From a virus, in IMG/VR virus record IMGVR_UViG_3300025849_000160, positions 1 to 28,461 of that record: a stretch of DNA of 28,461 bases. The stretch is one strand, 5' to 3'. How positions within the stretch are numbered: the stretch's first letter is position 1; every line of letters begins with the position of its first letter. The position numbers were made by a program, and so were the translations under genes. Below the pieces are notes generated by a model. The model saw only the letters and a program-made list of their open reading frames with translations. It was not told the DNA's origin and made no database searches. Shown here in pieces: positions 4,927 through 24,166 of the stretch.

Positions 4927-5655
4927 ATGAACAAATTCAATTTATTCTTAAATGAGAACAGCAATCGCAAAATCAGACGCACAAAAGATTATCACAAATT
5001 TTCTTTCAGTGTTGACAACAGACCATTAAATCTGGCTCACGTCCACACTCTGACAAAAAGTATTGAAAAGTATGGACAACTCGAGGTCATTAAAGTCGAC
5101 TCCAGAGGAGTGATCAAAGAGGGACAACATCGATTCACAGCCCTCAAAAATCTGGGCGAGTGGGTTGAGTATTATGTGTCCGACAGCGACCAGGACAACA
5201 TCATCGAGATGAACACAGTGAGACTTAATTGGCAGCTTTCAGACTATTTAAATTTTTATGTCAAAAAGAATGACTGGGGATATGAGAGATTCAATGATCT
5301 TGTCGTGCATTTCAATGGATTCTCTGTTCCTGCAATCAACAAAGCAGTCGGATGCACCTCATCAAATTTCAAAAAGGGACATCTCCAGATCAATGAGACC
5401 ACCTACAAAAACGCTGAGACAATCCTGATGGGTTGTGAATCGATCTCTGGGTGGTTTCATGCTGCAAGAGCTACCTCATTTGTGGCGGCAATGTCTGAGG
5501 TGAGTCGAAAATACAAGATTAATGTTCAAGCATTTTTCGCAAAGGCGACAATGTACAAAGACTCAAAGATGCATCATTGCACATCGACAGCAGAATATCG
5601 ACAAATGATCATCAATCTGTGGAACTATAAAAATAGAAATAAAATTAAACAATAA
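4927..5655 (+). CDS. ParB/Srx-fold protein of the replication module
   Basis: A 242-residue protein with a ParB-like N-terminal domain (about residues 28-95). The signature is VIKEGQHRFTALKNLG, with GQHR at 66-69, the nucleotide-binding loop of ParB/sulfiredoxin-fold proteins. Residues about 100-235 form a second, mainly helical part with aromatic residues (YLNFYVKKNDWGYERFNDL) that may be an HTH-type DNA-binding region (GFSVPAINKAVGCTSSNFKK). Phage members act as CTP/ATP-dependent DNA-binding proteins or nucleases; which applies is unknown. It lies between the replication proteins and the SSB-like gene, behind an A/T-rich leader. A replication or segregation role is inferred. Confidence 0.7.
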   Translation: MNKFNLFLNENSNRKIRRTKDYHKFSFSVDNRPLNLAHVHTLTKSIEKYGQLEVIKVDSRGVIKEGQHRFTALKNLGEWVEYYVSDSDQDNIIEMNTVRLNWQLSDYLNFYVKKNDWGYERFNDLVVHFNGFSVPAINKAVGCTSSNFKKGHLQINETTYKNAETILMGCESISGWFHAARATSFVAAMSEVSRKYKINVQAFFAKATMYKDSKMHHCTSTAEYRQMIINLWNYKNRNKIKQ

Positions 5656-7173: not shown

Positions 7174-7570
7174 AAAGAAAAAAGAGAGAATCAAAGGACT
7201 AGGAGATGCAGTTCATGCAGTCACCTCAGCTCTAGGAATTGACAAGGTGGTCAAAAAGACATTTGATGCAGCTGGTCTGGATTGCGGATGTGATGAAAGG
7301 AGAAAACGATGGAATGAACTTGTCCCCTTTACACGACAACCATATGATTGTCTCACTGAAAACGAATATAAAGAGCTCACAGTCATTTTCACAGAGCGAG
7401 GGGATATTATCACCATGGAGATGCAGAAACGTCTAAGAAACATCTCTGATCGCATTTACAGAGAGAGAACAGAGATGAGTTCATGTGGATCATGTATCCG
7501 AACACTCCACAAGAAAATGAAAGCTATTTGGGAAAACTACAAAGAGGATGAGGAAAAGAATCAAGACTGA
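7160..7570 (+). CDS. Conserved phage protein with paired cysteines
   Basis: A 136-residue protein that starts very basic (MGKNRKKKERIKGLGDAVHA). An amphipathic helix (SALGIDKVVKKTFDAAG) leads to a DCGCDERRKRWNELVPF motif (Cys43, Cys45). A second pair, SSCGSCIRTLHKKM (Cys107, Cys110), is near the C-terminus, so the four cysteines could bind zinc. I associate this 'GLGD...GIDKxV...DCGCxxRR' pattern with Bacteroidota phages, where it often lies near the terminase, but I know no function. A nucleic-acid-binding or packaging accessory role is a guess. It overlaps the following ParB-like gene by 23 bases. Confidence 0.6.
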   Translation: MGKNRKKKERIKGLGDAVHAVTSALGIDKVVKKTFDAAGLDCGCDERRKRWNELVPFTRQPYDCLTENEYKELTVIFTERGDIITMEMQKRLRNISDRIYRERTEMSSCGSCIRTLHKKMKAIWENYKEDEEKNQD

Positions 7571-7997
7571 GCTGCTCAAAGCTCATCCAGACAATCCCAG
7601 ATGGATCAGATCAAAAGACTTTGACAATCTGGTTGAATCGATCAAGAACTTTCCAGAGATGCTCAAGATCAGACCGATTGTGTGCAACCTGGATCATGTT
7701 GTCCTGGGAGGCAATCAACGTCTCCAGGCTGTGAGAGAACTCGAATGGAAATTTGTTGAGGTTGAGGTTGTCGATCTCACAGAGGATCAGCAAAAAGAGT
7801 TTTTGATCAAAGACAACAACAGCTCGGGTGACTGGAACATGGACATGATTGCAAATCAATTTGACATGACTCAACTGGAGGACTGGGGGATGAAACTTCC
7901 TGAGTTTGCATTTGATGCCAATGACCTGGACTTTGATCCAGACAGAGGAGAAACAACAAAAGATCAAACAGAAAAATGTGATTATTGTGGGAAATAA
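7548..7997 (+). CDS. ParB-like N-terminal domain protein beside the terminase
   Basis: A 149-residue protein with a clear ParB/Spo0J N-terminal fold. HPDNPRWIRSKDFDNLVESI (about 13-32) is followed by RPIVCNLDHVVLGGNQRLQA, with GGNQR at residues 54-58, then EFLIKDNNSSGDWNMDMI. Many phage relatives fuse this domain to a DNA methyltransferase; here it stands alone and ends with an acidic tail and a single CDYCGK knuckle, half of a zinc ribbon. It lies just before the terminase small subunit, a position that suggests marking or recognising DNA for packaging, though this is inference. The sequence is unrelated enough to the ParB protein at 4927 to be a separate lineage. Confidence 0.75.
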   Translation: MRKRIKTELLKAHPDNPRWIRSKDFDNLVESIKNFPEMLKIRPIVCNLDHVVLGGNQRLQAVRELEWKFVEVEVVDLTEDQQKEFLIKDNNSSGDWNMDMIANQFDMTQLEDWGMKLPEFAFDANDLDFDPDRGETTKDQTEKCDYCGK

Positions 7998-7998
7998 T

Positions 7999-8352
7999 GT
8001 GACAAAATATGACACTAAAAAAAAGGCAGTGATCAACGCAATGGAGAAATCCATGGGCATTGTCACTCAAGCCTGTAAACTGGCAGACATATCCAGAGAA
8101 ACATTCTATCGATGGATGAGAGAAGATGATGAGTTCCAGGAGCTAGTGACCCAGGCATCCGAACAGGCAAAAGATTTTGTCGAGTCCAAATTGTATGAAC
8201 AGATCTCTGAGGGAAATGTGCCCTCCATTATTTTCTACATGAAAACAAAATGCAAGGATCGAGGCTATGTCGAAAGAACAGAACACTCAATCCAGCAATT
8301 TATTGAACAACCACTTTTTCCAGATGTTTCAGAGGACGACAGCGATCAATAA
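7999..8352 (+). CDS. Terminase small subunit
   Basis: DNA-recognition subunit of the packaging motor. The HTH is VTQACKLADISRETFYRWMR, followed by DDEFQELVTQASEQAKDFVE and the typical oligomerisation segment LYEQISEGNVPSIIFYMKTK. I place the start at GTG 7999, directly after the upstream stop, giving 117 residues. The open frame reaches back to an ATG at 7906, but that extra stretch overlaps the ParB gene by about 90 bases and its peptide looks unnatural; GTG 7978 and ATG 8041 are other options. The gene lies directly before the large subunit, as usual. Confidence 0.82.
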   Translation: MTKYDTKKKAVINAMEKSMGIVTQACKLADISRETFYRWMREDDEFQELVTQASEQAKDFVESKLYEQISEGNVPSIIFYMKTKCKDRGYVERTEHSIQQFIEQPLFPDVSEDDSDQ

Positions 8353-9484
8353 ACTCATGAGGCTCACAAAGCCTCTCAGGATCATCCCAGGAGGATCATC
8401 AGCATCCAAAACATTCGGGATCCTGGCATTGCTCATTGATCATGCAATCAAAAACAAAGACTCTGAGATCGATGTTGTGGGATCAGATATTCCCATGCTC
8501 AGGAGAGGAGCTGTCACCGACTTCAAAAAGATCCTCAAATGGACAAAGAGATGGAGAGAGGAGCAGTTCAACAGGACGACTCTGACATACAATTTCACCA
8601 ATGGATCAACCATTTCATTTTTCTCAGCAGATTCAGAGGCGAAAGTCAGGGGTGCCAGGAGACAGATCCTCTATTTGAATGAGGCAAATCGAATTGACTT
8701 TGAGACATTCTATGCATTACGGATCAGAACCTCAGCCTGGACAATAATCGATTTCAATCCGACATCAGAGTTCTGGGCACATCAGGAGTATGTGAATGAT
8801 CCAGATGCTGAATGGTTGACACTAACATACAAAGACAATGAGGCAGCTCCAGAGTCAGCTGTCCAGGAACTAGAGAAAGCCAGGATCAAGGGAGAGAATG
8901 GCAATGAGTACTGGAGGAATTTCTATGATGTCTATGGTCGTGGATTACCAGGAAAGCTCCAGGGAGCTGTGTTCCAAAACTGGGAGGAGGGAGACTTTGT
9001 CCAGAAAGGGACTGTCCTGTTTGGTCAAGATTATGGATTCGCCAAAGACAGTTCGACCCTGGTGAAAACATGCATCGATTCAGATCGGAGGATCATTTAT
9101 GCAGAGGAGTGTTTCTACAAAACAGGATTGACAACCTCAGAGATCAGATCACTGAATCACAAATATGCTGGAGAGACTTCTCTGATTGTTGGTGATGTCG
9201 CTGAGAAACGATTGATCCATGAGCTCAAACATGGAGAGCCCAGACTCAACATGGCAGAATCAATCAAAGGGAGAGACTCAGTCAATTTCGGGATTGCACT
9301 GATGCAAGACTACAAAATGATTGTCAAAGGTCAGAACCTGATCAAAGAGCTTAAAGGATATATCTGGCTCGACAAAGGATTGCCCAAACCTCTCCAGGGA
9401 GATCACATCATTGATGCTCTGAGATATGCAGTCACCTATCAACTAAACAACAAACGAGCAGGAGAATATCATCTTTTTACCTAG
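8324..9484 (+). CDS. Terminase large subunit
   Basis: ATPase and nuclease of the headful-type packaging motor, 386 residues from ATG 8324. The deviant Walker A is IPGGSSASKTF (about 21-31) and Walker B is ILYLNEAN (115-122). The RNase H-like nuclease shows FGQDYGF (Asp236), IVGDVAEKR (Asp291) and GDHIIDALRYA (Asp360, Asp364). I chose 8324 because MFQRTTAINKL fits the usual N-terminus of this family in Bacteroidota phages. ATG 8267 would overlap the small subunit by 86 bases, while ATG 8357 would begin just after its stop. All catalytic residues are present, so it should be functional. Confidence 0.93.
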   Translation: MFQRTTAINKLMRLTKPLRIIPGGSSASKTFGILALLIDHAIKNKDSEIDVVGSDIPMLRRGAVTDFKKILKWTKRWREEQFNRTTLTYNFTNGSTISFFSADSEAKVRGARRQILYLNEANRIDFETFYALRIRTSAWTIIDFNPTSEFWAHQEYVNDPDAEWLTLTYKDNEAAPESAVQELEKARIKGENGNEYWRNFYDVYGRGLPGKLQGAVFQNWEEGDFVQKGTVLFGQDYGFAKDSSTLVKTCIDSDRRIIYAEECFYKTGLTTSEIRSLNHKYAGETSLIVGDVAEKRLIHELKHGEPRLNMAESIKGRDSVNFGIALMQDYKMIVKGQNLIKELKGYIWLDKGLPKPLQGDHIIDALRYAVTYQLNNKRAGEYHLFT

Positions 9485-9516
9485 ATAACACTAAACAAAA
9501 AAAACGTTCAACAAAT

Positions 9517-10191
9517 ATGCAAGCAGAAATCACAATTCCCTCAAGCATGAAAGAAATCACTGTTGACCAGTGGATGAAGTTCACAGCAATGACAAAAGAC
9601 ATTGTTGATGATGAGGTTTTCTTGATGGAAAAAACAGTCGAGATCCTTTGCAACATTCCCCTGGAGACAGTGAGAAAAATTCAGTATCAATCAGTCAGTC
9701 ACATGTGTGCTGCCTTGTCTGATATATTTGAGCAGGATCCACAATTTGAAAGATCATTTGTCATGGATGGGATCGAGTATGGATTCATCCCACAACTTGA
9801 TGACATCTCATTTGGTGAATACGTTGATCTTGACACCTTTCTCACAGATGAAAACAACTTGCACAAAGCCATGGCTGTTTTATATAGACCAATCAAACAA
9901 AAATTTTCAGATCATTATTTGATTGAGGACTATGATCCAGGCACGAAAAAGAAAATGAAATCGATGCCGATATATTATGCACTGGGAGCCCTGGGTTTTT
10001 TTTTGAATTTAAAGAACGAATTATTGAACAATACCCTGAATTATTTGGAGCAGACAACTCTGAATCTGACACCTCAGCAAAGGCTGGATTTGCAGAAAAA
10101 TGGAGCTGGTATCCGAGCATCTGGCACTGTGCTGGAGGAAGCCTTGCAAAATTTGACTATGTCACAGGATTACCTCTCACAACCTGCCTGA
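9517..10191 (+). CDS. Tail assembly chaperone-like protein, zero-frame product
   Basis: A 224-residue protein of a family I associate with Bacteroidota siphophages. The N-terminal part includes SMKEITVDQWMKFTAMTKDI, the centre FIPQLDDISFGEYVDLDTFL and KAMAVLYRPIKQKF, and then MPIYYALGALGFFLNLKNEL. At residues 160-163 the gene crosses nine Ts. The zero frame continues for about 60 residues, including LQKNGAGI and LEEALQNLT, and stops at 10189-10191. By analogy with lambda gpG it would bind and solubilise the tape measure during tail assembly. A companion -1 frame product is described separately. The function is inferred from the overlapping-frame layout, the tail-gene context and family memory. 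Confidence 0.7.
   Translation: MQAEITIPSSMKEITVDQWMKFTAMTKDIVDDEVFLMEKTVEILCNIPLETVRKIQYQSVSHMCAALSDIFEQDPQFERSFVMDGIEYGFIPQLDDISFGEYVDLDTFLTDENNLHKAMAVLYRPIKQKFSDHYLIEDYDPGTKKKMKSMPIYYALGALGFFLNLKNELLNNTLNYLEQTTLNLTPQQRLDLQKNGAGIRASGTVLEEALQNLTMSQDYLSQPA
9996..10005 (+). promoter_or_regulatory. Slippery sequence TTTTTTTTTG
   Basis: Nine consecutive Ts followed by G. The zero frame reads GGT TTT TTT TTG, so both T-TTT-TTT and T-TTT-TTG allow a -1 slip with full or near-full re-pairing. The run could also cause transcriptional slippage, since adding one U gives the same frame change. I did not identify a clear downstream stimulatory structure by eye. Confidence 0.65.
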
Positions 10192-10262
10192 CCTTTCTGG
10201 CATTTGAAAAGGAAAAAAACGAAATAGAAACACAACAGTTGAGAAATGGAAAACAGAGTTGA
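9996..10262 (+). CDS. Probable -1 frameshift extension of the tail chaperone (G-T-like)
   Basis: In the -1 frame relative to 9517 there is an open frame from 9936 to the TGA at 10260-10262 with no ATG or GTG, and no TTG until 10239, so it has no ordinary way to start. Downstream of the T run it encodes a convincing protein: EFKERIIEQYPELFG, then AEKWSWYPSIWHCAGGS, then KFDYVTGLPLTTCLTFLAFE and KEKNEIE. This pattern resembles chaperone C-terminal domains of Bacteroidota phages. A slip on the T run would join about 162 zero-frame residues to 86 from this frame, a product of about 248 residues. Its end overlaps the next gene by 17 bases. The open frame and missing start are seen; the frameshift is inferred. 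Confidence 0.7.
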   Translation, partial: FFFEFKERIIEQYPELFGADNSESDTSAKAGFAEKWSWYPSIWHCAGGSLAKFDYVTGLPLTTCLTFLAFEKEKNEIETQQLRNGKQS

Positions 10263-10518
10263 TTTAATTGACAAACTATACGATCTCGGAGTCATGGATG
10301 ACAATGATCAATTGTTGCTGTCAAATGGTTTTGATGATGCAATTATCGGAATCACAGCCATTCATCCAAAGAGAGTCATTTATGATTATTACAAAGCTGT
10401 TGACATACTTATGAGAGAAGATGGAGACATGGATCTGGATGAGGTCATCGAATGGCTAGAGGATCACATCAGTCATGATCTAGGAGAGCAAACACCAATT
10501 TTTATCAAAGCGATATGA
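10246..10518 (+). CDS. Conserved small phage protein, unknown
   Basis: A 90-residue acidic protein. The core reads GFDDAIIGITAIHPKRVIYD, then YYKAVDILMREDGDMDLDEV and IEWLEDHISHD, ending GEQTPIFIKAI. This 'AxIGI...VxYDYYKxxDILM...xxEExIEWxE...GExTPIFI' pattern recurs in many unrelated phages as a small hypothetical protein, but I know no established function. The start lies 17 bases inside the -1 frame chaperone extension and its stop overlaps the next start by ATGA. It is therefore part of the tail assembly operon, although homologues in other phages are not tied to tails. Confidence 0.7.
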   Translation: MENRVDLIDKLYDLGVMDDNDQLLLSNGFDDAIIGITAIHPKRVIYDYYKAVDILMREDGDMDLDEVIEWLEDHISHDLGEQTPIFIKAI

Positions 10519-10949
10519 ATACACTTTACAAAATAGTTGACGATATAAAAGGGATCCTGGAAAATGAGCCAGGGATCAACACTGTCTCATATGGAAACAT
10601 CGATGATGTTGATCTGACAAAGACAACCATTTATCCACTCGCTCACTCTATTCCAGGAAATGCAACAATCCAGGACAGAGTGATCCTGATGAACTTTTCA
10701 ATCATCCTGATGGATCTGGTTGATTTTAACAAGAAAGGGACAGACAATGAGCAGGATGTGCTTAACAGCCTTTTGGCAATTTCAGCTCGATTCGATGCTG
10801 AGATGAAAAGATCACAATTGTATCGGAATGATTATGAGCTCCAGGGATCAATCGACTGTGAGCCCTTTGTTGAAAGATTTGAAAACAATGCAGCTGGCTG
10901 GACTTTGTCTTTCACAGTAGCAATGAGAAATGAAATGACCAGTTGTTAA
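10515..10949 (+). CDS. Putative tail terminator/minor tail protein
   Basis: A 144-residue protein with an alpha-beta pattern: YKIVDDIKGILENEPGINTV, SYGNIDDVDLTKTTIYPLAH, RVILMNFSIILMDLVDFN, and a C-terminal strand GWTLSFTVAMRNEMT. The length and layout fit tail-terminator or head-tail joining proteins (lambda gpU type), which cap the tail tube. The neighbours are the chaperone upstream and an HK97 gp10-like protein downstream, the usual connector cluster. It is translationally coupled on both sides (ATGA before, TAATG after). The specific role is inferred from size and position. Confidence 0.55.
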   Translation: MNTLYKIVDDIKGILENEPGINTVSYGNIDDVDLTKTTIYPLAHSIPGNATIQDRVILMNFSIILMDLVDFNKKGTDNEQDVLNSLLAISARFDAEMKRSQLYRNDYELQGSIDCEPFVERFENNAAGWTLSFTVAMRNEMTSC

Positions 10950-11515
10950 TGAACATCAAAGAGACAAACAAAGCACTGAGCGAATGGGCAAATTTAATTG
11001 TCAAGGATGCACGATCCAATGCAGCACGAGAGTTTGGATCTGATTCAAACCTGGCATCTGCAATTGATTCTGAGGTCAAAGCATCAAAAAACTCAATAAA
11101 GATTTCATTCACTCCAGGATATGCCTCTTTTGTCGATCTAGGGGTCAGAGGAAACAAAGGAATCCTCAAAGATGGGAGACGATCATCGCCATATCAGTAT
11201 GGAAATAAAATGCCTCCCACATATGCCCTGGATAAATGGGCAATCAAAAAACTGCCAAAAGCAACCAGAAATGCAAAAGGTCAATTTGTAAAAAGGGAAT
11301 CACTCAAGTTTGCAATCGCAAAAAACATCCAACAATATGGCATCAAACAAACGCTTTTTTTCACTAGACCATTTGAAAAGTATTTTAAAATCTTACCTAA
11401 ATACATCACTCAAGCATATGGAGAGGATGTGGCGAAATATTATGTCACAGCTTTCAAAGATTCAATCAGTGATCAGTTCAAAATTGCAGCTGAGAAAGCT
11501 CAAAAATTCAATTAA
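10949..11515 (+). CDS. HK97 gp10-like tail completion/connector protein (putative)
   Basis: A 188-residue protein beginning in a TAATG overlap. The N-terminal helix (NKALSEWANLIVKDARSNAA) is followed by KISFTPGYASFVDLGVRGNK, a motif typical of gp10-like neck proteins in which a 'Y-x-FVDxGxxG' strand-turn is conserved. A basic loop and a helical C-terminus follow (AYGEDVAKYYVTAFKDSISD). Such proteins join tail to neck. I prefer ATG 10949 over a TTG six bases earlier because of the stop-start overlap. The family match is by pattern and context. Confidence 0.6.
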   Translation: MNIKETNKALSEWANLIVKDARSNAAREFGSDSNLASAIDSEVKASKNSIKISFTPGYASFVDLGVRGNKGILKDGRRSSPYQYGNKMPPTYALDKWAIKKLPKATRNAKGQFVKRESLKFAIAKNIQQYGIKQTLFFTRPFEKYFKILPKYITQAYGEDVAKYYVTAFKDSISDQFKIAAEKAQKFN

Positions 11516-11519
11516 AATC

Positions 11520-12290
11520 ATGTCAAGAAAAATCAACGTCAGATCTCCATTTTATCTTTTTGTCAAACCGACACCTGGACAGACAACGACAACCACAACT
11601 GAGGCAACAACAACAACCTCAACAACGACAGATGCTGCAACTACCACTCAAGCAGCAACGACCACTCAGGCTGCAACAACGAGCACATCAACTCAGGCTG
11701 CAACAACGAGCACCTCAACTCAAGCAGCAACAACAACAACAACTCAAGCAGCAACAACGAGCACATCAACTGAGGCAACAACAACAACCTCAACAACGAG
11801 CACAACGACAGCAGCTCCATCTTGCACATCTTACACTCTAGTTGTTGATAGTGGTGAAACGACTGCTAATTGGTCATATGTTAGTTGTGAAGGAACATCA
11901 ATGACATGGTCTGGTGTGAGTGGTGATCAGGAAATTGTTTGTGCACAAAGCATTCCAACAAAGACATCAGGATATGGAAGCATCTTCACTGGAGCCGCTT
12001 GCTCAAGCTCAGGAACAACGACAACAGCTGCTTCGACGACAACCACGTCAACTACCACTCAAGCAGCAACGACCACGTCAACGACCGCTGCACCGAGTTG
12101 CACTGAATGGGAAATAAGCAATGAAGCAGATAGTCCCAGCGGTTTTGATGGTGATTATTCTTACACTAATTGCAGTGGAACTGTGCAAACAGGATATCTA
12201 GCATTTGGACAAACAGTTTATGTGTGTGCTCAATCTGTCACGTCTACACATCCCGATATAACATACTATGATACAGGAACGTCATGCTAA
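11520..12290 (+). CDS. Thr-rich (mucin-like) fibre protein with two Cys-containing modules
   Basis: A 256-residue protein. MSRKINVRSPFYLFVKPTPG is a likely anchor segment. Residues about 21-98 are almost entirely Thr, with Ser, Ala and Gln. A first module (99-about 165) starts APSCTSYTLVV and contains WSYVSCEG and IVCAQS. A second Thr-rich linker (about 166-190) leads to a second module (191-256) starting APSCTEWEIS with YSYTNCSG and YVCAQS. Each module has four cysteines in the same order, so they are diverged copies. The frame extends upstream to an ATG at 11310, but that lies inside the previous gene; ATG 11520 has a good A-rich leader. A virion fibre or adhesin role is inferred. Confidence 0.7.
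   Translation: MSRKINVRSPFYLFVKPTPGQTTTTTTEATTTTSTTTDAATTTQAATTTQAATTSTSTQAATTSTSTQAATTTTTQAATTSTSTEATTTTSTTSTTTAAPSCTSYTLVVDSGETTANWSYVSCEGTSMTWSGVSGDQEIVCAQSIPTKTSGYGSIFTGAACSSSGTTTTAASTTTTSTTTQAATTTSTTAAPSCTEWEISNEADSPSGFDGDYSYTNCSGTVQTGYLAFGQTVYVCAQSVTSTHPDITYYDTGTSC
11578..11813 (+). repeat. Low-complexity CAA/ACN tandem repeats coding for Thr tract
   Basis: Imperfect tandem repeats built on ACA/ACC/ACG and CAA-type triplets, including units of about 27 bases that encode TQAATTSTS. A 28-base segment at 11638-11665 recurs exactly at 12049-12076 in the second linker. Such DNA can change length by slippage or recombination without breaking the frame when whole units are lost. Confidence 0.8.
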
Positions 12291-12302
12291 AAAAAAAAAA
12301 AA
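12289..12302 (+). repeat. A14 homopolymer at the glycosyltransferase start
   Basis: Fourteen consecutive As run from the fibre stop codon (TAA at 12288-12290) into the ATG at 12302. If translation starts at 12302 the run is an A-rich leader; if at 12284 it encodes Lys residues and any length change shifts the frame. Confidence 0.75.
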
Positions 12303-13231
12303 TGAAATATCTTTTATCACAGCCAGCTGTCAGATATTATGAATGGCAAATTGAAATTTCAATTAATTCACTGCTGGAAAATGGAGTTGACCCTGGAGAC
12401 ATTCACATTGTCTCTGGGATGCAGAATGGAATTGTTTCTCCTGGCTTTGATCTATTGCAAAAAAAATATCCTGAGATCATTTGGGCATTTTATCATGACA
12501 ATCGATCAGATCGCTCCAGAAAATACATTCCATCAATTAGACCACACCTCAACAAAAAACACTGGAGGAAGCATCCAGAGCTCCAGGATGAGGTCATCTT
12601 TTATATGGAAGCAGACACAATTTTAATCAAACCAATACCAAAAAAATTTAAACTCTCAAGCACATGGTTTCTATCAGACACAAAATCATACATCGGTCAC
12701 GACTACATCGTCAAAAAAGACAAACGTTTTCTCGACCTCTTTTGTGGTATCGTTAAAATTGATCCAGAGGTTGTCAAAGCAAACCAGGAGGGATCAGGAG
12801 GTGCTCAATATATCATGAAAGGATTGACTGAGCATTACTGGGAGAAAGTCGAGAGAGACTGTGTTGAGATCTACATTCAAGGATCAAAACTAAACCAGGA
12901 GATCAAAGCTGAGGATCCTGAGTGGCATGAGCTCCAGATCTGGACTGCATGCATGTGGGCACATCTTTGGAATGGATGGCTCCTGGGATATCAAACAGAA
13001 TGTCCAAAGGAACTTGATTTCACCTGGGCAACAGATCCAAAAGAAAACATTGTAAAAAACAGAATTTATCACAATGCAGGAGTCACAAAAAAACACAAAG
13101 GTCTGATGATGAAATCAGATTTTATCAATGAACTCCCATTTGATAAAAAATTAAATATAAATCAAAATCTCGCTGGCTCTTATTACTGGGCAAAAGTCCA
13201 AAAAGTAGGAAAAACCAGCTGCCTCAAATAG
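12302..13231 (+). CDS. Glycosyltransferase-like protein (GT-A type)
   Basis: A 309-residue protein from ATG 12302. The pattern fits a GT-A fold: SINSLLENG and DIHIVSG in the first Rossmann part, KKYPEIIWAFYHDN, then VIFYMEADTILIKPIP with an acidic EAD at 103-105 in the place of the DxD motif. Further on come SDTKSYIGHDYI, GSGGAQYIMKG, IWTACMWAHLWNGWLLG, and IYHNAGV near the end. No signal peptide or membrane segment is visible, so it would act in the cytoplasm. It lies between two genes whose products carry Thr/Ser-rich tracts, so virion protein O-glycosylation is an attractive role. ATG 12284 is an in-frame alternative, but fourteen As lie between the two. Confidence 0.7.
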   Translation: MKYLLSQPAVRYYEWQIEISINSLLENGVDPGDIHIVSGMQNGIVSPGFDLLQKKYPEIIWAFYHDNRSDRSRKYIPSIRPHLNKKHWRKHPELQDEVIFYMEADTILIKPIPKKFKLSSTWFLSDTKSYIGHDYIVKKDKRFLDLFCGIVKIDPEVVKANQEGSGGAQYIMKGLTEHYWEKVERDCVEIYIQGSKLNQEIKAEDPEWHELQIWTACMWAHLWNGWLLGYQTECPKELDFTWATDPKENIVKNRIYHNAGVTKKHKGLMMKSDFINELPFDKKLNINQNLAGSYYWAKVQKVGKTSCLK

Positions 13232-13238
13232 TAAAATT

Positions 13239-14225
13239 ATGCCCTTAAAAACTGTCAAAATAAATCTTTTCATTTATGATGGAACTGTCGGAGTTTACAC
13301 AGCAAATGATTTAAAATATCGACTCACAAAAGATGTGATCGGTGATCAAGGAAAAGCAATTCTTGAAATTGGAGAGCTAGTCAGAGACCACGTTGAAAAC
13401 ACTTTTGATGGATCAACATATCAGTCAAAAACAAAGTGGGTGACAGCAGCTGCTCAATTATTTGATGAGACAGGAACAGACATGCAGGATGATCAATCAT
13501 TTCATTATCTAGCAGTTGATGGCTTTGGAACCTTTGAACAGGGAATCAATCCTGATTTGGACAATCATGTTTTGCAATCAAATGACATCATGTATGTCCT
13601 GGATGGACAAAGAGCACAGATCCCTGTTTTTGCTGAGAGCTTGTCTCAGATTACATTCTACAATGGAAACACAAACATCGGATCACAGACAATCACAGAC
13701 AATGGAAATTCAAATCAAAAGATCCAGTTTGTTTCTCCTCCATCTAATTGCACCAAAGCAGTTTTTGATTCGATAACAGAAAGGACAATCACAATCAATC
13801 ATGTCTGTGAGAATCTACACACAACACATGACATTCATTTCATCAATAAATTTGGAGCCCTCCAAAAAATCACATTTTTCAAGAGAAGCGACAAGACCAT
13901 GAAGATCAAAGACAGAACATTTCGATCAAACACTCTCGATCATGCATCTGAAAACTACTCAATCAGCAGGGGTCAATCAAAGAGATACAATGTCACAGCA
14001 AAATCAAACATCACAATGAACACAGGATTTGTTGATGAGTCATTCAACCAGGTGATCGAGGAAATGCTTTTATCAGAGGACATCTGGATCAACTACAAAA
14101 ACCAGACTCTCTCTGTGATTCCAACATCCAAAAGTCTGAAATACAAAACAAACCTCAATGACAAGCTGATCAATTATTCTTTTGATTTTGATTTTGCTTT
14201 TGACAAATTCAACCTGATCAGATAA
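13239..14225 (+). CDS. Tail structural protein (distal-tail-like), putative
   Basis: A 328-residue, beta-rich protein of the tail cluster. The N-terminal strands (VKINLFIYDGTVGVYTANDL) are followed by an Ig-like mid section (SLSQITFYNGNTNIGSQTI) and a C-terminal domain with INKFGALQKITFFKRSDK, SKRYNVTAKSNITMNTGFV, FNQVIEEMLLSEDIWI and SFDFDFAFDKFNLIR. The last part resembles the structural proteins that precede the large tail protein in Bacteroidota siphophages. Its stop is followed at once by the next ATG. Distal-tail or baseplate-hub function is inferred from position just before the large tail protein. Confidence 0.55.
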   Translation: MPLKTVKINLFIYDGTVGVYTANDLKYRLTKDVIGDQGKAILEIGELVRDHVENTFDGSTYQSKTKWVTAAAQLFDETGTDMQDDQSFHYLAVDGFGTFEQGINPDLDNHVLQSNDIMYVLDGQRAQIPVFAESLSQITFYNGNTNIGSQTITDNGNSNQKIQFVSPPSNCTKAVFDSITERTITINHVCENLHTTHDIHFINKFGALQKITFFKRSDKTMKIKDRTFRSNTLDHASENYSISRGQSKRYNVTAKSNITMNTGFVDESFNQVIEEMLLSEDIWINYKNQTLSVIPTSKSLKYKTNLNDKLINYSFDFDFAFDKFNLIR

Positions 14226-16571
14226 ATGAAACAAATTCAACTATACATCGAGGATCAACGTGTTGAGCTATACAAAGACGAGAGCATTGTCTTGACTCAG
14301 ACTGTTCAAAATGTTAAAGATATTGGAAAGGTGTTCACTCCCTTTTCCAGGAGTTTCACTGTTCCAGCTAGCAGAACAAACAACAAGATTTTCAAGCACT
14401 TTTATAATTCAAGCATCATTGATGCAATTGATGTCAGAGTGAGAGTTGATGCAAGAATTGATCTGAATCATTCAAGGTTTGAAAAGGGAAAGATTAAACT
14501 GGATGGGGTACAAATGAAAAACAACAAAGCTGATTCATACAAGATCACCTTTTTTGGAAACACTGTGACCCTCCGAGACAAGCTGAGAAATGACAAACTT
14601 GATGCACTTTACTGGTTGAAAAATTTCAATTTCTCTTATTCAAACACCGCTGTCATTAATGCGTTGTCAACTGGAAAAGACGTTTCGATTGATGGAGTGA
14701 ATCATCCAGATGCTTTTGTTGTTCCACTGATCACTCATGAAGATCGACTCATTTATGATCCAGGATCACCAGATGACAAAAATCTTGCATACAACTCCCA
14801 GACAGTTGGTGGTGTTGATTGGCAGCAATTAAAGCCAGCAATCAGAATTGATCATATCATCAGAGCGATTGAGAAACAGTATGACATTGAGTTTTCAGAT
14901 CATTTTTTTAATGATTCAAATCCAGCTTATTGGGATTTATATATGTGGCTGCATAGAAAAAAAGGACAGATCAATGAATCTGCTCAAGGTGTTGACACTT
15001 ATATCGATGCTTTCAATTTTGAAAATCAAACGTGGGGGAATGGTTTCATGACAAATCCGTACGGGTATACAATGAGAAACATCACATCAGTTCCAACTTA
15101 TTCAGGCTATCAAGACAATTATGATCAATTTGACTGGTCACAGCGACCACCTACATCTGTCAACTATTACACAGTCAGACACTATTTTGTGCCAAATGAT
15201 CCCACTTTAAAATATGCAATAGTGATCAAAATTGATGGGAGATTGATTGAAAGGATTGAAGATGTTGAAGGTTCCAAATTGGTTCAAATTATACACAGGG
15301 AAAATGGAAACGTCACTGTTGAGGTTGAAGCAAATCAAACAATGAGCTTTCTCCCAACAAGAATCAGTGTGATTGCTGAGCAGCATTATGGAGTGACAAA
15401 GTGGAAAGTCTTTGATTCACAATCATTGACTCTGGCTCCAGATTTCACATTTGATTCAACTAGGGAAATTCCAGAAATAAAAGTTGTTGATTTTTTATCT
15501 GGACTTTTTAAGATGTGGAACCTGGTTGCCTATGTTGATTATGATGGAAAGATCATTGTCAGAACTCTTGACAGTTGGTATCAATCCAGTGACAACACCT
15601 TTGACATCACTGAGCACATTGACTCAACAAAAAGCACAATTGACACTGCTTTACCATATAGAGAAATCCTTTTTGATTATGAAGGCAAACAGTCATTCTT
15701 TGCAAAAAATCACAATGCTTTATTCAACTATGAGCATGGTGTCGAAAGATACAGGGGTGATGACAACAAGCTCTTGTCTGGGGCAGATTATCGAATCAAG
15801 ATTCCATTTGAGCATCACAAATTTGAGAGACTATACAATCCATCCTCTGGAACAGCAACTGACATTCAGTGGGGGTGGTCTGTTGATGACAACATGCAAT
15901 CAATCCTGGGAAAACCCCTGTTGTTTTATCCTATACAGCAGTCAAATTCAACACCGATTGCAGTGAGATCAACTCCCACAGCTCATCAAAGTGTCTCGAC
16001 ATATTACATTCCATCAAATAGCTTGTCCCTGGATCCAAATGTTTCATCTGAAAATCTAAATTTTAAAGCTGAGATCAATGAATACACAGCGACAACATTC
16101 GATCAAACTTTGTTTAAAAAATATTATTCAAAATATATTTCAGAAACTTTTGATCAATCCAGAAGGTTGACAAAATTTACAGCCAGACTCCCCATGAGTT
16201 TTTTGTTGAACTATGAACTCAATGATCTGGTGATTGTGTTTTCAAGGCTTTACAAAATAAACGCAATTGAAACCAATCTGTCAACTGGTATTTCAAAACT
16301 TGAATTGATAAACTCTCCAGAGTCTCAGATCAATGCAGCTGATGACACGTTGCTTTATACATATATTGACTCTGACCTGGGTACATCTGATTCGGATGAT
16401 GTGACTGTTGACACTGACGATGAATATACTCCTGACATTGTAGGGATTACCACTCAGGCTCCAACAACAACAACAACAATCAATCAAACTTCGACGACCT
16501 CAACAACAACCTCATCAGGAAGTGGTGGCGGTGGTGCTGGCGGTGGTGGAGAAAAACTTAATGAAGATTAA
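14226..16571 (+). CDS. Large tail (tip/hub) protein with Thr-Gly-rich C-terminal tail
   Basis: A 781-residue protein. The N-terminus includes IEDQRVELYKDESIVLTQTV and FTPFSRSFTVPASRTNNKIF, a signature I associate with large tail proteins of Bacteroidota phages. The middle (PEIKVVDFLSGLFKMWNLVA, then YVDYDGKIIVRTLDSWY) and the C-terminal part (MSFLLNYELNDLVIVFSRLY) look like a tail-hub domain. Residues from about 745 form a low-complexity tail, TTQAPTTTTT then TSTTSTTTSS and a Gly-rich GSGGGGAGGGG. This closely resembles the Thr tracts of the fibre at 11520. The stop overlaps the next small gene as TAATG. Tail tip or hub is inferred; the low-complexity tail is plain to see. Confidence 0.65.
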   Translation: MKQIQLYIEDQRVELYKDESIVLTQTVQNVKDIGKVFTPFSRSFTVPASRTNNKIFKHFYNSSIIDAIDVRVRVDARIDLNHSRFEKGKIKLDGVQMKNNKADSYKITFFGNTVTLRDKLRNDKLDALYWLKNFNFSYSNTAVINALSTGKDVSIDGVNHPDAFVVPLITHEDRLIYDPGSPDDKNLAYNSQTVGGVDWQQLKPAIRIDHIIRAIEKQYDIEFSDHFFNDSNPAYWDLYMWLHRKKGQINESAQGVDTYIDAFNFENQTWGNGFMTNPYGYTMRNITSVPTYSGYQDNYDQFDWSQRPPTSVNYYTVRHYFVPNDPTLKYAIVIKIDGRLIERIEDVEGSKLVQIIHRENGNVTVEVEANQTMSFLPTRISVIAEQHYGVTKWKVFDSQSLTLAPDFTFDSTREIPEIKVVDFLSGLFKMWNLVAYVDYDGKIIVRTLDSWYQSSDNTFDITEHIDSTKSTIDTALPYREILFDYEGKQSFFAKNHNALFNYEHGVERYRGDDNKLLSGADYRIKIPFEHHKFERLYNPSSGTATDIQWGWSVDDNMQSILGKPLLFYPIQQSNSTPIAVRSTPTAHQSVSTYYIPSNSLSLDPNVSSENLNFKAEINEYTATTFDQTLFKKYYSKYISETFDQSRRLTKFTARLPMSFLLNYELNDLVIVFSRLYKINAIETNLSTGISKLELINSPESQINAADDTLLYTYIDSDLGTSDSDDVTVDTDDEYTPDIVGITTQAPTTTTTINQTSTTSTTTSSGSGGGGAGGGGEKLNED

Positions 16572-16705
16572 TGAAAGAAATACTTGAACTTTTAAAAATT
16601 GCCAGGACAGAAAAATGGTCTGGATCATCAATTGACATTGCCCTGGGAAAACATAAGATGCCCGAATCTTTCCATGAATTAAAACAAAAAATCAAACGCT
16701 TATGA
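16571..16705 (+). CDS. 44-residue protein before the tape measure
   Basis: A short gene fitted exactly between the large tail protein (TAATG overlap at its start) and the tape measure gene (ATGA overlap at its end). The peptide begins MKEILELLKIARTEKWSGSS and continues IDIALGKHKMPESFHELKQK. It is helical and basic with no membrane segment. The coupling at both ends argues strongly that it is translated. Function unknown; an assembly factor for the tape measure is possible from position only. Confidence 0.6.
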   Translation: MKEILELLKIARTEKWSGSSIDIALGKHKMPESFHELKQKIKRL

Positions 16706-18603
16706 GCCAGAAAATTCTTGTGGACATGTCTGTCGATGTCAAGTCGGCAAACAAAAACATTGAAAAAACAAAAGAGGCACTTGGAGATCTGATCGATGTC
16801 CAGGTTGAGGCTCTTAATGAAATAAAGAAATCAAACAAAGCAAATGAGGAGGCAAACAAAAAACTCCTCAAGTCTACCAAAAAAGCTGAGGGAGGATTCA
16901 AAAGTTTTTTCAAAGTATTAAAAGGAGCAGCGATTTTGACTGTGATTGTCAAGGCTGTCCAAATGCTAGGATCAGCACTTGCATCAAACCAGGTGATCGC
17001 TGACAAGATTTCTGTTGTGTTTGGAACTATCTCATCAGTGATGACTCAAGTGGGAACAGCTTTCGCAGATGCAGCAAAACAAGTATCATCAACAGGTGAA
17101 TCATTTGAGGGAATCAAGGGAGTCCTGGGAGGCTTAGTTGATGGAGTCCTGGCAACATTCAAGGGGACCATTGATGGGATCAGGCTCGCTGTGTATGCTT
17201 CACAACTGGCATGGGAGGAGTCTTTCTTTGGAGACAAAGACCAGGCAACAATTGACAGACTCAACGGAAAAATTGATGAAACAAAACAAAGTTTATCTGG
17301 AACCTGGGAAACATTAAAAACAGCAGGATCAGAAATCGCTGACAATTTTGGAGAGGCAATCAATGAGATCGGAAAGGTCACAACTATTGCTGTTGATCAG
17401 ATCAAAGAAATTGACGTCAAACAGACTGCATCCAATCAGGACAGATTGACTCAATTAAAAAACCAGACAAAGATTGCAATCGCTGAGAATGACAAACTGC
17501 AATTCATTTATCAAAGAGATGCAGAACTCCAGAGACAGATCAGAGATGATGTGACTCTCTCCCTAGCAGACAGAAAAACCGCAAATGATGAGCTCGGGAT
17601 TGTTCTTGAAAAACAACTGGAGCTCCAGCTGGCAAACGCTAAAAAAAGAGAGGAGCAGGCACGATTTGAATTGTCATTAAACAAAGACAATGTCGATCTG
17701 CAAGTCCAACTCCTGGAGGCTGAGAAAAATGTCGCTGATGTGAGAGAAAACATTTCAGGATTCCAGTCTGAGCAGATCAAAAACAGTCAAGATTTGCAAG
17801 TTGAGGAGATTGACATGATCAATTCCAAAGCTGAGGCTGAGGCAAACAGAGCACTCAATGCTCAAGCATTTGCAGCTGAAAGAGAAACTGATGAGATTGC
17901 CAGACTTGAGAAGCTTAGAGAAAACCTGGATATTGAGGAAGAGATTGAAACAACAAGGCTTGAGGCTCAGATCGGAAAATACAAAATAGGAACTCAAGCT
18001 CGACAGGATGCAGAACAACAGCTCCTAGACTTTCAACAGGATGCTGCTCAAAGAGGTGAAAAACTTGATGATGACATTTCAAAGAAACAAACAGCCAGAG
18101 ACAAAGCAGTTGCAAAGCAAAAGATTGCATTGACAGCTCAAACCTTTGGAGCACTCGCTGGGATCCTGGGAGAGAACTCAGCAGCAGGAAAAGCCGCGGC
18201 CATTGCTCAGGCAACGATCAACACATACCAAGGTGTCACAGAGGTTCTGGCAAACAAGTCAATTTTACCTCAACCATTTGCAACAATCGAGAAAATCGTG
18301 TCGATTGCAGCTGTCCTGGGAACTGGTTTGAAAACTGTGAAAGAAATCACAGCAGTTCCAAAGCCGAACATCCCTGGAGGACGAGGAGGATCATCTGGAG
18401 GAGGACGAGGCATCAACACATCAGTTGCAAGCACTCCAGCTGCTCCTCCTGCTTTCAATGTTGTCGGAGCCAGTGCAACATCACAACTGGCAGAAACGAT
18501 CAGCAACAAAGAGGAAAAGCCTGTCAAAGCCTATGTCGTGAGCAATGATGTCTCATCGGCTCAATCAATGGACAGAAACATTGTGGAAAATGCATCAATT
18601 TAA
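16702..18603 (+). CDS. Tape measure protein
   Basis: A 633-residue helical protein that sets tail length. The N-terminus is coiled coil (NKNIEKTKEALGDLIDVQVE). Hydrophobic helices follow (about 73-150: LKGAAILTVIVKAVQMLGSA, VFGTISSVMTQVGTAFADAA). A long charged coiled coil runs over about 250-480 (RDAELQRQIRDDVTLSLADR). A second Ala-rich hydrophobic part (about 480-560: GKAAAIAQATINTYQGVTEV) ends in a Gly/Pro-rich region (GGRGGSSGGGRG). At roughly 0.15 nm per residue the tail would be near 95 nm, a flexible siphovirus tail. It is coupled to the 44-residue gene by ATGA and is the last tail gene before the head genes. Confidence 0.88.
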   Translation: MSQKILVDMSVDVKSANKNIEKTKEALGDLIDVQVEALNEIKKSNKANEEANKKLLKSTKKAEGGFKSFFKVLKGAAILTVIVKAVQMLGSALASNQVIADKISVVFGTISSVMTQVGTAFADAAKQVSSTGESFEGIKGVLGGLVDGVLATFKGTIDGIRLAVYASQLAWEESFFGDKDQATIDRLNGKIDETKQSLSGTWETLKTAGSEIADNFGEAINEIGKVTTIAVDQIKEIDVKQTASNQDRLTQLKNQTKIAIAENDKLQFIYQRDAELQRQIRDDVTLSLADRKTANDELGIVLEKQLELQLANAKKREEQARFELSLNKDNVDLQVQLLEAEKNVADVRENISGFQSEQIKNSQDLQVEEIDMINSKAEAEANRALNAQAFAAERETDEIARLEKLRENLDIEEEIETTRLEAQIGKYKIGTQARQDAEQQLLDFQQDAAQRGEKLDDDISKKQTARDKAVAKQKIALTAQTFGALAGILGENSAAGKAAAIAQATINTYQGVTEVLANKSILPQPFATIEKIVSIAAVLGTGLKTVKEITAVPKPNIPGGRGGSSGGGRGINTSVASTPAAPPAFNVVGASATSQLAETISNKEEKPVKAYVVSNDVSSAQSMDRNIVENASI

Positions 18604-18626
18604 AATCAAATTAAAATCAAAATAAA

Positions 18627-19235
18627 ATGGAAATCATTGAACTAATTATTGACGAGGAAATGGACAACGCTGGAATCGAAGCGGTCTCAATAGTGTCTGA
18701 GCCAGCCATTGAGGAATCGTTCATCGCATTAAGTAAACAACAAGAGATCAAACTTGCTGAGGTTGACTCTGAAAAAAGGATTCTGATGGGAGCTGCTCTT
18801 GTTCCTGGTCGGATGATTTATCGAAATGGAGGAAAGGACAAGGATGGATTTTATGTTCATTTTTCTGAGGCGACAGTCAGGAGAGCATCTGAGTTGTTTT
18901 TCATTAAAAGCAACCACATCAATGCAACCCTGGAGCACGATGCCCCCCTGGACCAAATGACAATTGTTGAGTCCTGGATCGTTGAGGATCCCGAGGTCGA
19001 CAAATCAAAATTGTACGGGATGGATCTTCCAAAGGGAACCTGGATGATCAGCATGAAAGTTGATGACGAAGAGATCTGGGAGGATCAAGTCAAAGGAGGA
19101 CTGGTTTCAGGTTTCTCAATTGAAGGATTTTTCATGGATCGTGCAAAGCTAGGACTCAGTGTTGACAGCGATGAAATCGAAGCTGAAAACGAGCTGCAAA
19201 AAGTGAGAGACATCATTCAAAAAAATAATCAATAA
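18627..19235 (+). CDS. XkdF-like prohead serine protease
   Basis: A 202-residue protein matching the XkdF-type phage protease family, which processes the prohead. The N-terminus has AVSIVSEPAIEESFIAL, a typical start. The core holds RILMGAALVPGRMIYR, FYVHFSEATVRRASE, the likely catalytic His104 in NATLEHDAP, and GGLVSGFSIEGFF with the likely nucleophile Ser161 (or Ser164). The C-terminus is acidic and helical. It opens the head module directly after the tape measure and precedes the scaffold candidate and major capsid gene, the expected order. The A-rich leader AAAATCAAAATAAAATG fits a Bacteroidota start. Confidence 0.82.
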   Translation: MEIIELIIDEEMDNAGIEAVSIVSEPAIEESFIALSKQQEIKLAEVDSEKRILMGAALVPGRMIYRNGGKDKDGFYVHFSEATVRRASELFFIKSNHINATLEHDAPLDQMTIVESWIVEDPEVDKSKLYGMDLPKGTWMISMKVDDEEIWEDQVKGGLVSGFSIEGFFMDRAKLGLSVDSDEIEAENELQKVRDIIQKNNQ

Positions 19236-19247
19236 ACCCCCAAAACT

Positions 19248-19628
19248 ATGCAAAACGAAAAACTGAGACACTACCTCGGAGCAATCGGAGTCTTTCTCCT
19301 GGTCATCTTCTTACTTATGTTCTTAGCATTCAATGAGATTCCAGCAAAAAACAAAGACATTTTTGTTTCAACTGTCGGAGTGATTACAGGAACAATCGGA
19401 GCAATCATCGCTGTGATTGTTGGACGTGATCCAGATCGAGAAAATGCCCTAGCCAAAAAAGTTGAAAGCCAGGCTGATCAAATAGATTTTTTAATCAAAC
19501 AAAAAGACGAGCTGGAATCAATGCTGATCAAAATGCAGGAATCTCTGATCGACAACATGTCCATTCTGGGAACAACTCTTTTTGACACAAAGATCAACCC
19601 ACCAAAAAAAACAAAAAAAGATGAGTAA
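19248..19628 (+). CDS. Two-helix membrane protein with coiled-coil tail
   Basis: A 126-residue protein. Two transmembrane helices are evident (about residues 9-28, YLGAIGVFLLVIFLLMFLAF, and 41-60, VSTVGVITGTIGAIIAVIVG), followed by a cytoplasmic charged coiled coil (about 68-105) and a Lys-rich end. The topology would place both ends in the cytoplasm. It sits within the head genes, away from the lysis cluster. A holin-like or membrane-anchoring function is conceivable, but I cannot assign one. Its end overlaps the next small gene by eight bases. Confidence 0.6.
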   Translation: MQNEKLRHYLGAIGVFLLVIFLLMFLAFNEIPAKNKDIFVSTVGVITGTIGAIIAVIVGRDPDRENALAKKVESQADQIDFLIKQKDELESMLIKMQESLIDNMSILGTTLFDTKINPPKKTKKDE

Positions 19629-19782
19629 ACAATTGAAAAAAAAGGGATGGGATCGGAGAGCAGATTCCAAAACATCTCCCAGGGGAGGCAAACAACCATG
19701 TCTTTGTCCAGATAACACATATCACCCAGACTGCTGTGATGGATCAATGTATGCTCAAGGAATTGGACAGACTGAGGCTTAA
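19621..19782 (+). CDS. 53-residue Cys-rich mini-protein (CLCPD...CCDG)
   Basis: A small protein starting at ATG 19621, inside the end of the preceding gene. The basic N-terminus (MSKQLKKKGWDRRADSKTSP) leads to a compact motif, PCLCPDNTYHPDCCDG, then YAQGIG. Four cysteines in CxC and CC pairs could bind a metal or form disulphides. I recognise the 'CLCxDGTY...CCDGxxxAQGIG' pattern as recurring in short proteins and C-terminal tails of Bacteroidota and their phages, but I know no function. An upstream in-frame ATG at 19582 is less likely because it lies further inside the neighbour. Confidence 0.6.
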   Translation: MSKQLKKKGWDRRADSKTSPRGGKQPCLCPDNTYHPDCCDGSMYAQGIGQTEA

Positions 19783-20429: not shown

Positions 20430-20432
20430 ACA

Positions 20433-22034: not shown

Positions 22035-22391
22035 ATGATCAAACTTGATAAAACAACAGACAACCAGACGATCTCATTCATCCCACGATATCATGTAATT
22101 GATGCAGAATATAACATCAAAATCACAACAGAGGGAGAGGGAGAGGTCATCCATGATGCAACTGTCACTGGACTCACTGCTAAAAAATATTTTTATCAAT
22201 ACACAGCAGCATTCAATTTCAGACTTGACACAACATATCAACTAGAAATCACACATGACAACACTCTGATCTATCAAGACAGAATCCTGGTGACAAACCA
22301 GACAGGAAATTATTCTGTCAATGACCAGGTTTACACATACAAAACCACACAAAACAATTCAACAGAAAACAAATTCAAAATGTACTCATGA
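22035..22391 (+). CDS. Small beta-rich structural protein, unknown
   Basis: A 118-residue protein rich in Thr, Tyr and Asn with alternating strands (NQTISFIPRYHVIDAEYNIK, FNFRLDTTYQLEITHDNTLI, YQDRILVTNQTGNYSV). The repeated strand pattern suggests an Ig-like or beta-sandwich fold, as in head decoration or connector accessory proteins. It overlaps the portal gene by ATGA, so the two are translated together. No specific family is recognised. Confidence 0.6.
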   Translation: MIKLDKTTDNQTISFIPRYHVIDAEYNIKITTEGEGEVIHDATVTGLTAKKYFYQYTAAFNFRLDTTYQLEITHDNTLIYQDRILVTNQTGNYSVNDQVYTYKTTQNNSTENKFKMYS

Positions 22392-24166
22392 AAGATTCAA
22401 ACATTCACGTCATAGAATTATCGGCATACACCAGACCAGAAATCACAGAATCAAAACAAAGAGACTGGATTCACTTTGGTGATGACAATAACTTTCCGAA
22501 ATATTTGATTAACAGATACATCAACTCTCCCACAAACCACACAATCATCAACTCGATTGCTACTCAGGTGTATGGAAAGGGTCTTGATGCCTTTGACAAA
22601 TCACAAAAGCCTGATGAATATGCAGCAATGATCAACATGTTCAAAAAGAAAGATCTCAAGAGATTAATCCTGGATCTCAAGATCCTAGGAATGGGAGCTC
22701 TTCAGGTGACTTATAAAGGAAAACGAGTTGACCAGGTCACACATTTTCCGATGGAAACTTTGAGACCAGAGAAATGCAATGACAAAGGAGAGATCGAAGC
22801 CTGGTTTTATCATCCAGACTGGCAGAAAGCAAAACGAAATGACAAGCCCTTAAGGATTCCAGTGTTTGGATCAGGTGCCTCAAATGAGATCATGATCCTT
22901 GGAAGATACATTTCATCAATGAAATATTTGTCCCTCCCTGATTGGATGGGGTCAGCAGCATATTGTGAACTCGAGGAAAACATTGCAGACTATCTTTTGA
23001 ACACTGTAAACAACTCATTTTCAGCGAGTAAAATGATCAACTTTCCAAATGGAACTCCATCCAGAAACAAAATGGTTGAGATAAAAAACGATGTTGTCAG
23101 AAAACTCACATCACAGCATGGAGACAAAATCATTGTTTCATTTTCAGAAAGCAAAGAGACAGCTCCAGAGGTGATTGATTTGCCGATCCAGGATGCTGCT
23201 CAGACATATGAATACCTCAGCGAAGAGTGTTCCAGAAAAATCATGATCGGACACAGAGTGACCTCTCCTTTGCTTATTGGATTGAGAGATGGAAATTCTG
23301 GACTCGGATCAAATGCCGATGAAATTATCAACTCCTCAAGGCTATTCACAAACGTCACGATCAGACCATATCAGGAACAGATCATCGATGCTCTTGATGA
23401 GATCATGGCTGTCAATGGATTGTCCCTGGACATGTATTTTAAAACTCTTGAGCCTTTAGAATTTAGAGAAGCAAACAACGTGATCACACAGGCTGATGAG
23501 GATGCTGAGGACACAGATGAGCTCTCTGTTGGACTTAGTAAAAAAAAAGATGAAAGACCATATCTGAATGATGATGATGCCTCAGACCTCTTTGAACAGC
23601 TCCAGGAGTTTGGCGAGGACATTGACTCGAATGAGTATGAAATGATCGGAGCTGAAACAACCGAAGATGAGCCAGAGGATTTTGATGTTGAGGCATATTT
23701 GAACGGAATGAATTTCTCAGCAAACCAGGATTCAGCTCAAGACAGTGAGAGATACAAAGTGAGATATCGATATGTCTCAGGAACAAACAGAACAACAAAG
23801 GGAGGAAGCTCCAGAGAGTTCTGCAAACAAATGCTGAAACTTGACAAATTATATCGCAAAGAGGACATTTCTCAGATGAGTTTTAAAGGGATAAACAAAA
23901 GCCATGGTCACAAAGGGAGACGATATTCGCTTTTCCGCTTTGGAGGCGGTGTCAACTGTGGTCACGTATTCCAGCGAGTCATCTTTCGAAAGCGATTTAA
24001 AAAGGATGGAACGCTCTGGGGAGGTGATGCTTTAGCTGGGACAAATTATGTCAATGTGAATCAAGCTGTGAGAGAAGGTTTCAAACTACCAAAGAACCCA
24101 CCAGAGGTCTCTCAAGCAAATTCAACCAGGGCTGACAAGGGTCATCATCCAAATTGGAAAGGATAA
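22388..24166 (+). CDS. Portal protein with an extra C-terminal domain
   Basis: A 592-residue protein. The portal part covers about residues 1-380: RDWIHFGDDNNFPKYLINRY, HTIINSIATQVYGKGL, ILGMGALQVTYKGKRVDQVT, GSAAYCELEENIADYLLNTV, MIGHRVTSPLLIGLRDGNSG, then IRPYQEQIIDALDEIMAVNG. It forms the ring through which DNA is packaged. An acidic low-complexity linker (about 385-455) leads to a basic C-terminal domain (about 455-592) with RYKVRYRYVSGTNRTTKGGS, REFCKQML, YRKEDISQMSF, SHGHKGRRYSLFRFGGGVNC and GHVFQRVIFRKR. That part is reminiscent of minor-head/MuF-type sequences, with conserved-looking Cys and His. The portal call is strong; the extension is unassigned. Confidence 0.82.
   Translation: MKDSNIHVIELSAYTRPEITESKQRDWIHFGDDNNFPKYLINRYINSPTNHTIINSIATQVYGKGLDAFDKSQKPDEYAAMINMFKKKDLKRLILDLKILGMGALQVTYKGKRVDQVTHFPMETLRPEKCNDKGEIEAWFYHPDWQKAKRNDKPLRIPVFGSGASNEIMILGRYISSMKYLSLPDWMGSAAYCELEENIADYLLNTVNNSFSASKMINFPNGTPSRNKMVEIKNDVVRKLTSQHGDKIIVSFSESKETAPEVIDLPIQDAAQTYEYLSEECSRKIMIGHRVTSPLLIGLRDGNSGLGSNADEIINSSRLFTNVTIRPYQEQIIDALDEIMAVNGLSLDMYFKTLEPLEFREANNVITQADEDAEDTDELSVGLSKKKDERPYLNDDDASDLFEQLQEFGEDIDSNEYEMIGAETTEDEPEDFDVEAYLNGMNFSANQDSAQDSERYKVRYRYVSGTNRTTKGGSSREFCKQMLKLDKLYRKEDISQMSFKGINKSHGHKGRRYSLFRFGGGVNCGHVFQRVIFRKRFKKDGTLWGGDALAGTNYVNVNQAVREGFKLPKNPPEVSQANSTRADKGHHPNWKG

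Follow-up and report, generated by a model that had tools for sequence, protein, structure and literature searches.

Phage tail-assembly chaperone genes usually adjoin the tape measure gene, and in lambda, where G/GT adjoins the tape measure gene H, the shift between the two frames is made by ribosomes on GGGAAAG. Chaperones of the G/GT type bind the tape measure and the tail tube protein and do not form part of the virion. The lambda proteins gpG and gpGT are two products of a -1 shift, made at a ratio of 30:1 and endowed with a chaperone role (PMC5009743). In SPP1, the pair 17.5/17.5* would arise from a -1 shift at a U-rich sequence, with an N-terminal part of 112 aa common to a short form of 173 aa and a long form of 297 aa, and the heptamer thought to be used is UUUUUUC (PMC6316719). 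The tail-chaperone precedents in the literature that we searched (lambda, SPP1 and others) are ribosomal, and such frameshifts have so far been viewed as a translational device. Expression of the Shigella gene mxiE proceeds through a single U added within a run of U (PMC1088944), and slippage receives a passing mention for a prophage tape measure gene (PMC6095929). We found no report of a conserved T9 or of polymerase slippage in a tail chaperone in the literature searched, the coverage of which was partial.

Here we analyze a stretch of 28,461 bases of phage DNA (the window), which is a virus record in its own right, and a gene within it that is like lambda gpG/gpGT in having two predicted products through a -1 shift, with no recognizable homology to that pair. 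The gene is also like SPP1 17.5, in which a zero-frame tail of about 61 codons follows the shift (PMC6316719), so the long zero-frame tail of the window family is not unique. It differs from SPP1 17.5 in having T9 instead of the UUUUUUC heptamer and in its place, as SPP1 17.5 immediately precedes the tape measure gene, and no sequence relation between the two was found. Our proposal for the switch resembles the case of mxiE, where a U run joins overlapping ORFs through one base inserted in part of the mRNA (PMC1088944), although mxiE is a bacterial regulator gene and not a phage structural gene. The true homologues of the window gene are genes 40-41 of the Nonlabens phage P12024L and genes 38-39 of P12024S, and in both of these annotated GenBank genomes the gene is split into two separate "hypothetical" proteins. 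Its PHROG (32199) is labelled "unknown function", and the family is so far without functional annotation.

A predicted two-product gene with its switch at a run of nine T

In the window, the zero-frame ORF encodes a predicted short product of 224 aa, and the -1 frame relative to it is open for 108 codons (9936-10259, with a stop at 10260-10262), has no ATG or GTG and has its sole TTG at 10239, exactly as the initial annotation had described it. That annotation had also placed a T9 in slip-ready phase at the junction, and the run does lie there, in the register GGT TTT TTT TTG (Table 1). It is the only run of at least 8 T in the window, where dinucleotide content leads one to expect 0.33 runs of 9 or more. 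The AlphaFold model of the N-domain is confident (pLDDT above 90 in most blocks), and the final helix of this domain continues into the zero-frame end and into the -1 end alike.

Table 1. Features of the switch gene and of its neighborhood in the window
Feature	Coordinates	Strand	Remarks
Terminase large subunit	8267..9484	+	upstream neighbor in 273/299 loci with room
Predicted short product	9517..10191	+	shared N-domain (~162 aa) and zero-frame tail (62 aa); PHROG 32199, E 3.4e-21
T9 shift site, GG TTTTTTTTT GAA	9996..10004	+	run length at least 9 throughout 265 distinct relatives
-1 extension of predicted long product, ~86 aa, W[GS]W[YF] motif region	10002..10262	+	conserved in relatives; reached only via the shift
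Dual-coding stretch, both frames read	10005..10188	+	synonymous divergence and open-frame tests
Small ORF, 90 aa, next gene downstream	10246..10518	+	overlaps end of -1 frame by 17 bases
Conserved downstream neighbor, PHROG 30964 ("unknown function")	10515..10949	+	present in 304/322 loci
Neck/tail-completion-like protein	10943..11515	+	weak, PHROG 5, E 2.6e-4
Tape-measure-like protein	16702..18603	+	PHROG 9483, E 4.6e-11, partial match
Head maturation protease-like protein, start of head module	18627..19235	+	-
Portal protein	22388..24166	+	E 2.2e-82

Relatives were gathered by tblastn, which led to the cultured phages P12024L and P12024S, and by scans of sequence collections. Together these gave about 315 related loci, nearly all from IMG/VR and one from a MAG contig, and removal of duplicates left 265 distinct proteins, which form 82 clusters at 70% identity. 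The layout of a short and a long form, with a common N-part and a -1 extension, is conserved among them as coding potential, and 44 of 47 members match the profile of PHROG 32199 over the N-domain. Both Nonlabens phages have the same T9 and the same -1 frame as the window. The run has 9 T in 257 of the 265 distinct relatives, 10 in seven and 11 in one, and it is never shorter; leaving it in the -1 frame leads to a conserved KWGWY-like motif. Among first-round loci with both ends present, all but L011 and L162 pass from the zero frame through the T run into the -1 frame, and the same -1 shift is found in 154 of 154 second-round loci (T9 in 149, T10 in five). Because the scans used peptide patterns, with Phe written as TTY and with one pattern consisting of the KWGWY motif, distant from the run, run length was not itself selected for. 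Upstream of the run, 26% of Phe codons are TTC and just 40% of V, L and I codons have a final T; within the run, Phe is never TTC. The T run is the sole conserved slip-prone sequence in the shift region. Upstream of it the -1 frame soon closes, with a stop at a median distance of 17 codons and at 3-6 codons in some clusters, so the shift must be local; the third frame, which is the one expected from other indels, shuts within 8 codons in 81 of the 82 clusters. This comparison of 265 distinct relatives supports the -1 switch on the T run that the initial annotation had claimed and confirms, at the level of coding potential, a two-product gene with a common N-part, two different C-terminal ends and a switch at T9.

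One alternative is that the junction is an artefact, either a sequencing error at T9/T10 or a recent frameshift mutation in a single gene. The locus L011 (478-1239) does have the look of a homopolymer error, as its T10 lets it be read as a single-frame fusion, and because its zero-frame tail stays open for about 90 codons in the shifted frame, we take L011 itself to be a recent change or error. In L162, a single contig, the -1 frame is broken. Against reading the junction at large in this way stand its recurrence in 265 distinct sequences, two cultured isolates among them and every one with T9 or longer, and the selection on both frames described below. The conservation of T9 in relatives rules out a sequencing or assembly error, and an artefactual origin of the switch is, on all this evidence, exceedingly improbable.

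Alternatively, the -1 region could be an independent gene that has a start codon to itself, which is how GenBank treats gene 41 of P12024L, with an ATG 76 bases past the run. However, 68 of the 82 clusters have no ATG or GTG before the motif, 42 have no ATG, GTG or TTG there, and conservation of the -1 frame starts right at the run, upstream of the annotated ATG. With most clusters devoid of a usable start, we reject an independent gene as highly improbable and retain the two-product gene.

The gene most likely belongs to long-tailed phages of marine Bacteroidetes. Searches found no cultured relatives besides P12024L and P12024S, and the scan of genome contigs gave one match, to a MAG contig of probable phage origin. 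The contig of the locus L168 (PAPR01000049.1, 652-1388) was assigned to a bin of Pseudooceanicola, an alphaproteobacterium, whereas the cultured relatives infect Bacteroidetes; it is probably mis-binned phage DNA.

Selection on the overlap of the two frames

Both frames had been judged protein-like over 10005-10191 from the window sequence, with about 190 bases read twice, and the comparison across relatives bears this out. In 48 clusters, the open stretch of the zero frame past the run measures 181 nt on average, whereas permuting the -1 codons among synonyms would leave 76 nt open. Among 57 disjoint pairs, the -1 frame has a pS of 0.30 where the frames overlap, compared with 0.59 in the upstream shared N-part and 0.56 past the zero-frame stop, while pN is flat across the same three regions (0.13, 0.12 and 0.12). 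The suppression of pS follows the zero frame class by class: it ends near base 165-190 in families with a zero-frame stop there, and it runs to the end in families in which the zero frame reaches 240 or more. Codons at identical residues differ in 7-12% of cases just after the run versus 28-45% just before it. RNA structure as a cause of the synonymous suppression was considered and rejected, as there is no stable structure and no Rfam family and the suppression ends near zero-frame stops. The lowered -1 pS together with a zero frame that is kept open means that about 60 codons in the window encode two selected ends, and the data support selection on both frames of the overlap.

Zero-frame residue identity is 0.715, a slight excess over the 0.698 of shuffled codon pairs (maximum 0.704), and much of what looks conserved in the tail, such as NGDGI and NYLE, mirrors the -1 frame. 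Because identity is barely above that of the shuffles, selection on this tail may be partly for openness and general helical character. The dual-coded stretch offers a natural example of unusual clarity for work on overlapping genes.

Polymerase slippage or ribosomal slippage

The initial annotation left the choice between frameshift and slippage open and suggested looking at the conservation of the T run and of its phase in homologues. The length of at least 9 is kept, but the phase is not constant, and a run of 9 is found in all three codon registers. In the register NNT, 13 of 13 sequences have at least 9 T, where a heptamer would need only 7; in the register NTT, 247 of 247 have at least 9, where a heptamer would need only 8. 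The flanking T's of the NTT register are partly due to the hydrophobic residues encoded, so the shifted registers are the informative cases. In sequences that lack the left T (GGT, ACT and AAT codons) the run reaches further to the right, and in those that lack the right T (TTT CTG, TTT GCT) it reaches further to the left. L266 (GGTTTTTTTTTGGC) and L280 (GCGGTTTTTTTTTGCT) encode proteins that are 96% alike, with a different register and the same run length, and the pair L280/L294 set against L266/L291 exemplifies this sliding of the register at length 9. In many bacterial genomes, selection against slippage comes into view once runs reach nine (PMC1088944). The junction carries a mark of transcriptional slippage, an unbroken run of about 9 or more T whose length is independent of codon register.

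A stem-loop or SD-like stimulator is common, if not obligatory, in -1 ribosomal frameshifts. Nearest-neighbor folding with a pseudoknot-free model found no conserved RNA structure downstream of the run (mean z about 0), SD-like motifs are in no excess (13 of the 82 clusters versus 18 in the control), and no conserved bases were found upstream of the run among clusters. The same two-product gene could still be switched by ribosomes, with the P- and A-site tRNA-Phe slipping on U UUU UUU. Since any T9 holds this heptamer in register, ribosomes could slip at each of these runs, and the heptamer is indeed present in the run of every relative; the heptamer thought to be used by SPP1 and the ribosomal precedents noted above lend this route further weight. 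On the other side, a run of at least 9 is kept beyond the heptamer whatever the register, and no stimulatory element was found, and we regard ribosomal switching as doubtful. A register-independent T9 with no stimulators fits polymerase slippage better than tandem tRNA slippage. The comparative data thus lean towards the transcriptional route, and we think polymerase slippage rather likely, given a real switch.

The full explanation that we lean towards, with some reserve, is a two-product virion-assembly gene, a tail chaperone, switched by polymerase slippage on T9. Unaltered U9 mRNA would yield the short form, presumably the abundant one, in which the N-domain is followed by a short helical zero-frame tail. 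RNA polymerase would slip on T9 in a minority of transcripts and add one U; by a less likely route, ribosomes would step back one base on this U run. Reading of the U10 message would join the N-domain to the -1 frame and give the long form, with a predicted end of 86 aa that is basic and helical and carries the KW(G/S)WY motif. By analogy with lambda G/GT, the short form might form a coat on the tape measure and the long form might bring in the tail-tube protein, at a fixed ratio. Polymerase over ribosome, the product ratio and the chaperone function are what we infer here, unlike the switch, its conservation and the dual coding.

If this explanation is true, a strict T9 without translational stimulators would mean that these phages obtain two products at the level of transcription. 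It would parallel dnaX, for which Thermus and E. coli reach one outcome by two routes, transcriptional and translational. We offer, tentatively, the broader idea that a large clade of Bacteroidetes phages may set the ratio of two chaperones by polymerase slippage on T9, with both ends under selection. For annotation, the T9 together with the -1 motif provides a rule that marks the gene at once across hundreds of phage contigs.

The predicted protein and its gene neighborhood

The initial annotation had called the gene a tail chaperone. The two-product -1 architecture of that claim held up, and the chaperone identity would follow from this architecture, from the gene's location and from weak fold similarity. 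For the N-domain, VIA-align ranks 2OB9, the tail assembly chaperone of HK97, highest (Z 3.3, rmsd 4.2, 67 residues aligned), a match that covers residues 1-71 only at 8% identity and lies within noise. Foldseek with the N-domain model gave no PDB match under E 1, and PDB fold searches with both models gave no confident match, the rows for the tails being generic helical hairpins. In BFVD, one match, at E 0.1, is a predicted viral structure labelled as a tail assembly chaperone; the same database has uncharacterized relatives of 240-270 aa, a length sufficient for possible one-frame versions. PHROG 166 ("tail protein") has weak matches in 12 of the 47 members (best E 5e-4); T4 gp26/gp51 were considered as the meaning of this PHROG and rejected, as they belong to other PHROGs. 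There was no convincing match in Pfam or NCBIfam, and the profile libraries give the family no name.

In the window, the chaperone candidate precedes the neck-like, tape-measure-like, protease, capsid-like and portal genes. It does not directly adjoin the tape measure gene, from which it is 6-7 kb apart in relatives as well; the distance of 6.5 kb given by the initial annotation agrees with a tape-measure-like gene that starts at 16702, the assignment of which is weak. Because adjacency to the tape measure is lacking, we do not file the gene as a proven member of the G/GT type. The switch could be real and the product another virion-assembly factor, of a head-tail joining or scaffold-like kind, as might be suggested by a gene that adjoins the terminase, stands far from the tape measure and has no clear PDB match in the fold search. 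The two-product -1 architecture and the weak similarity to the HK97 chaperone and to "tail protein" speak against such a factor, which we consider unlikely. A tail-assembly chaperone is probably the right reading, given the architecture, the place in the virion module and the weak HK97 and "tail protein" similarity, with homology only conjectural.

The gene order across 8267-24166 is unusual, with the terminase, the putative chaperone and the tail genes followed by the protease and capsid-like genes and the portal coming last. Two ParB-like genes (4927-5655 and 7548-7997) are present in this one small phage genome. A run of 14 A at 12289-12302, six bases into the ORF 12284-13231 (ATGCTAAAAAAAAAAAAAATG), is absent from the relative L002, and it could serve in slippage or phase variation or else be filler ahead of a second ATG. 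At about 11520-12290 lies a gene for a Thr-rich, mucin-like repeat protein (TTTTSTTT and AATTTQ repeats), which is common to the nearest relatives only and is possibly displayed or adhesive.
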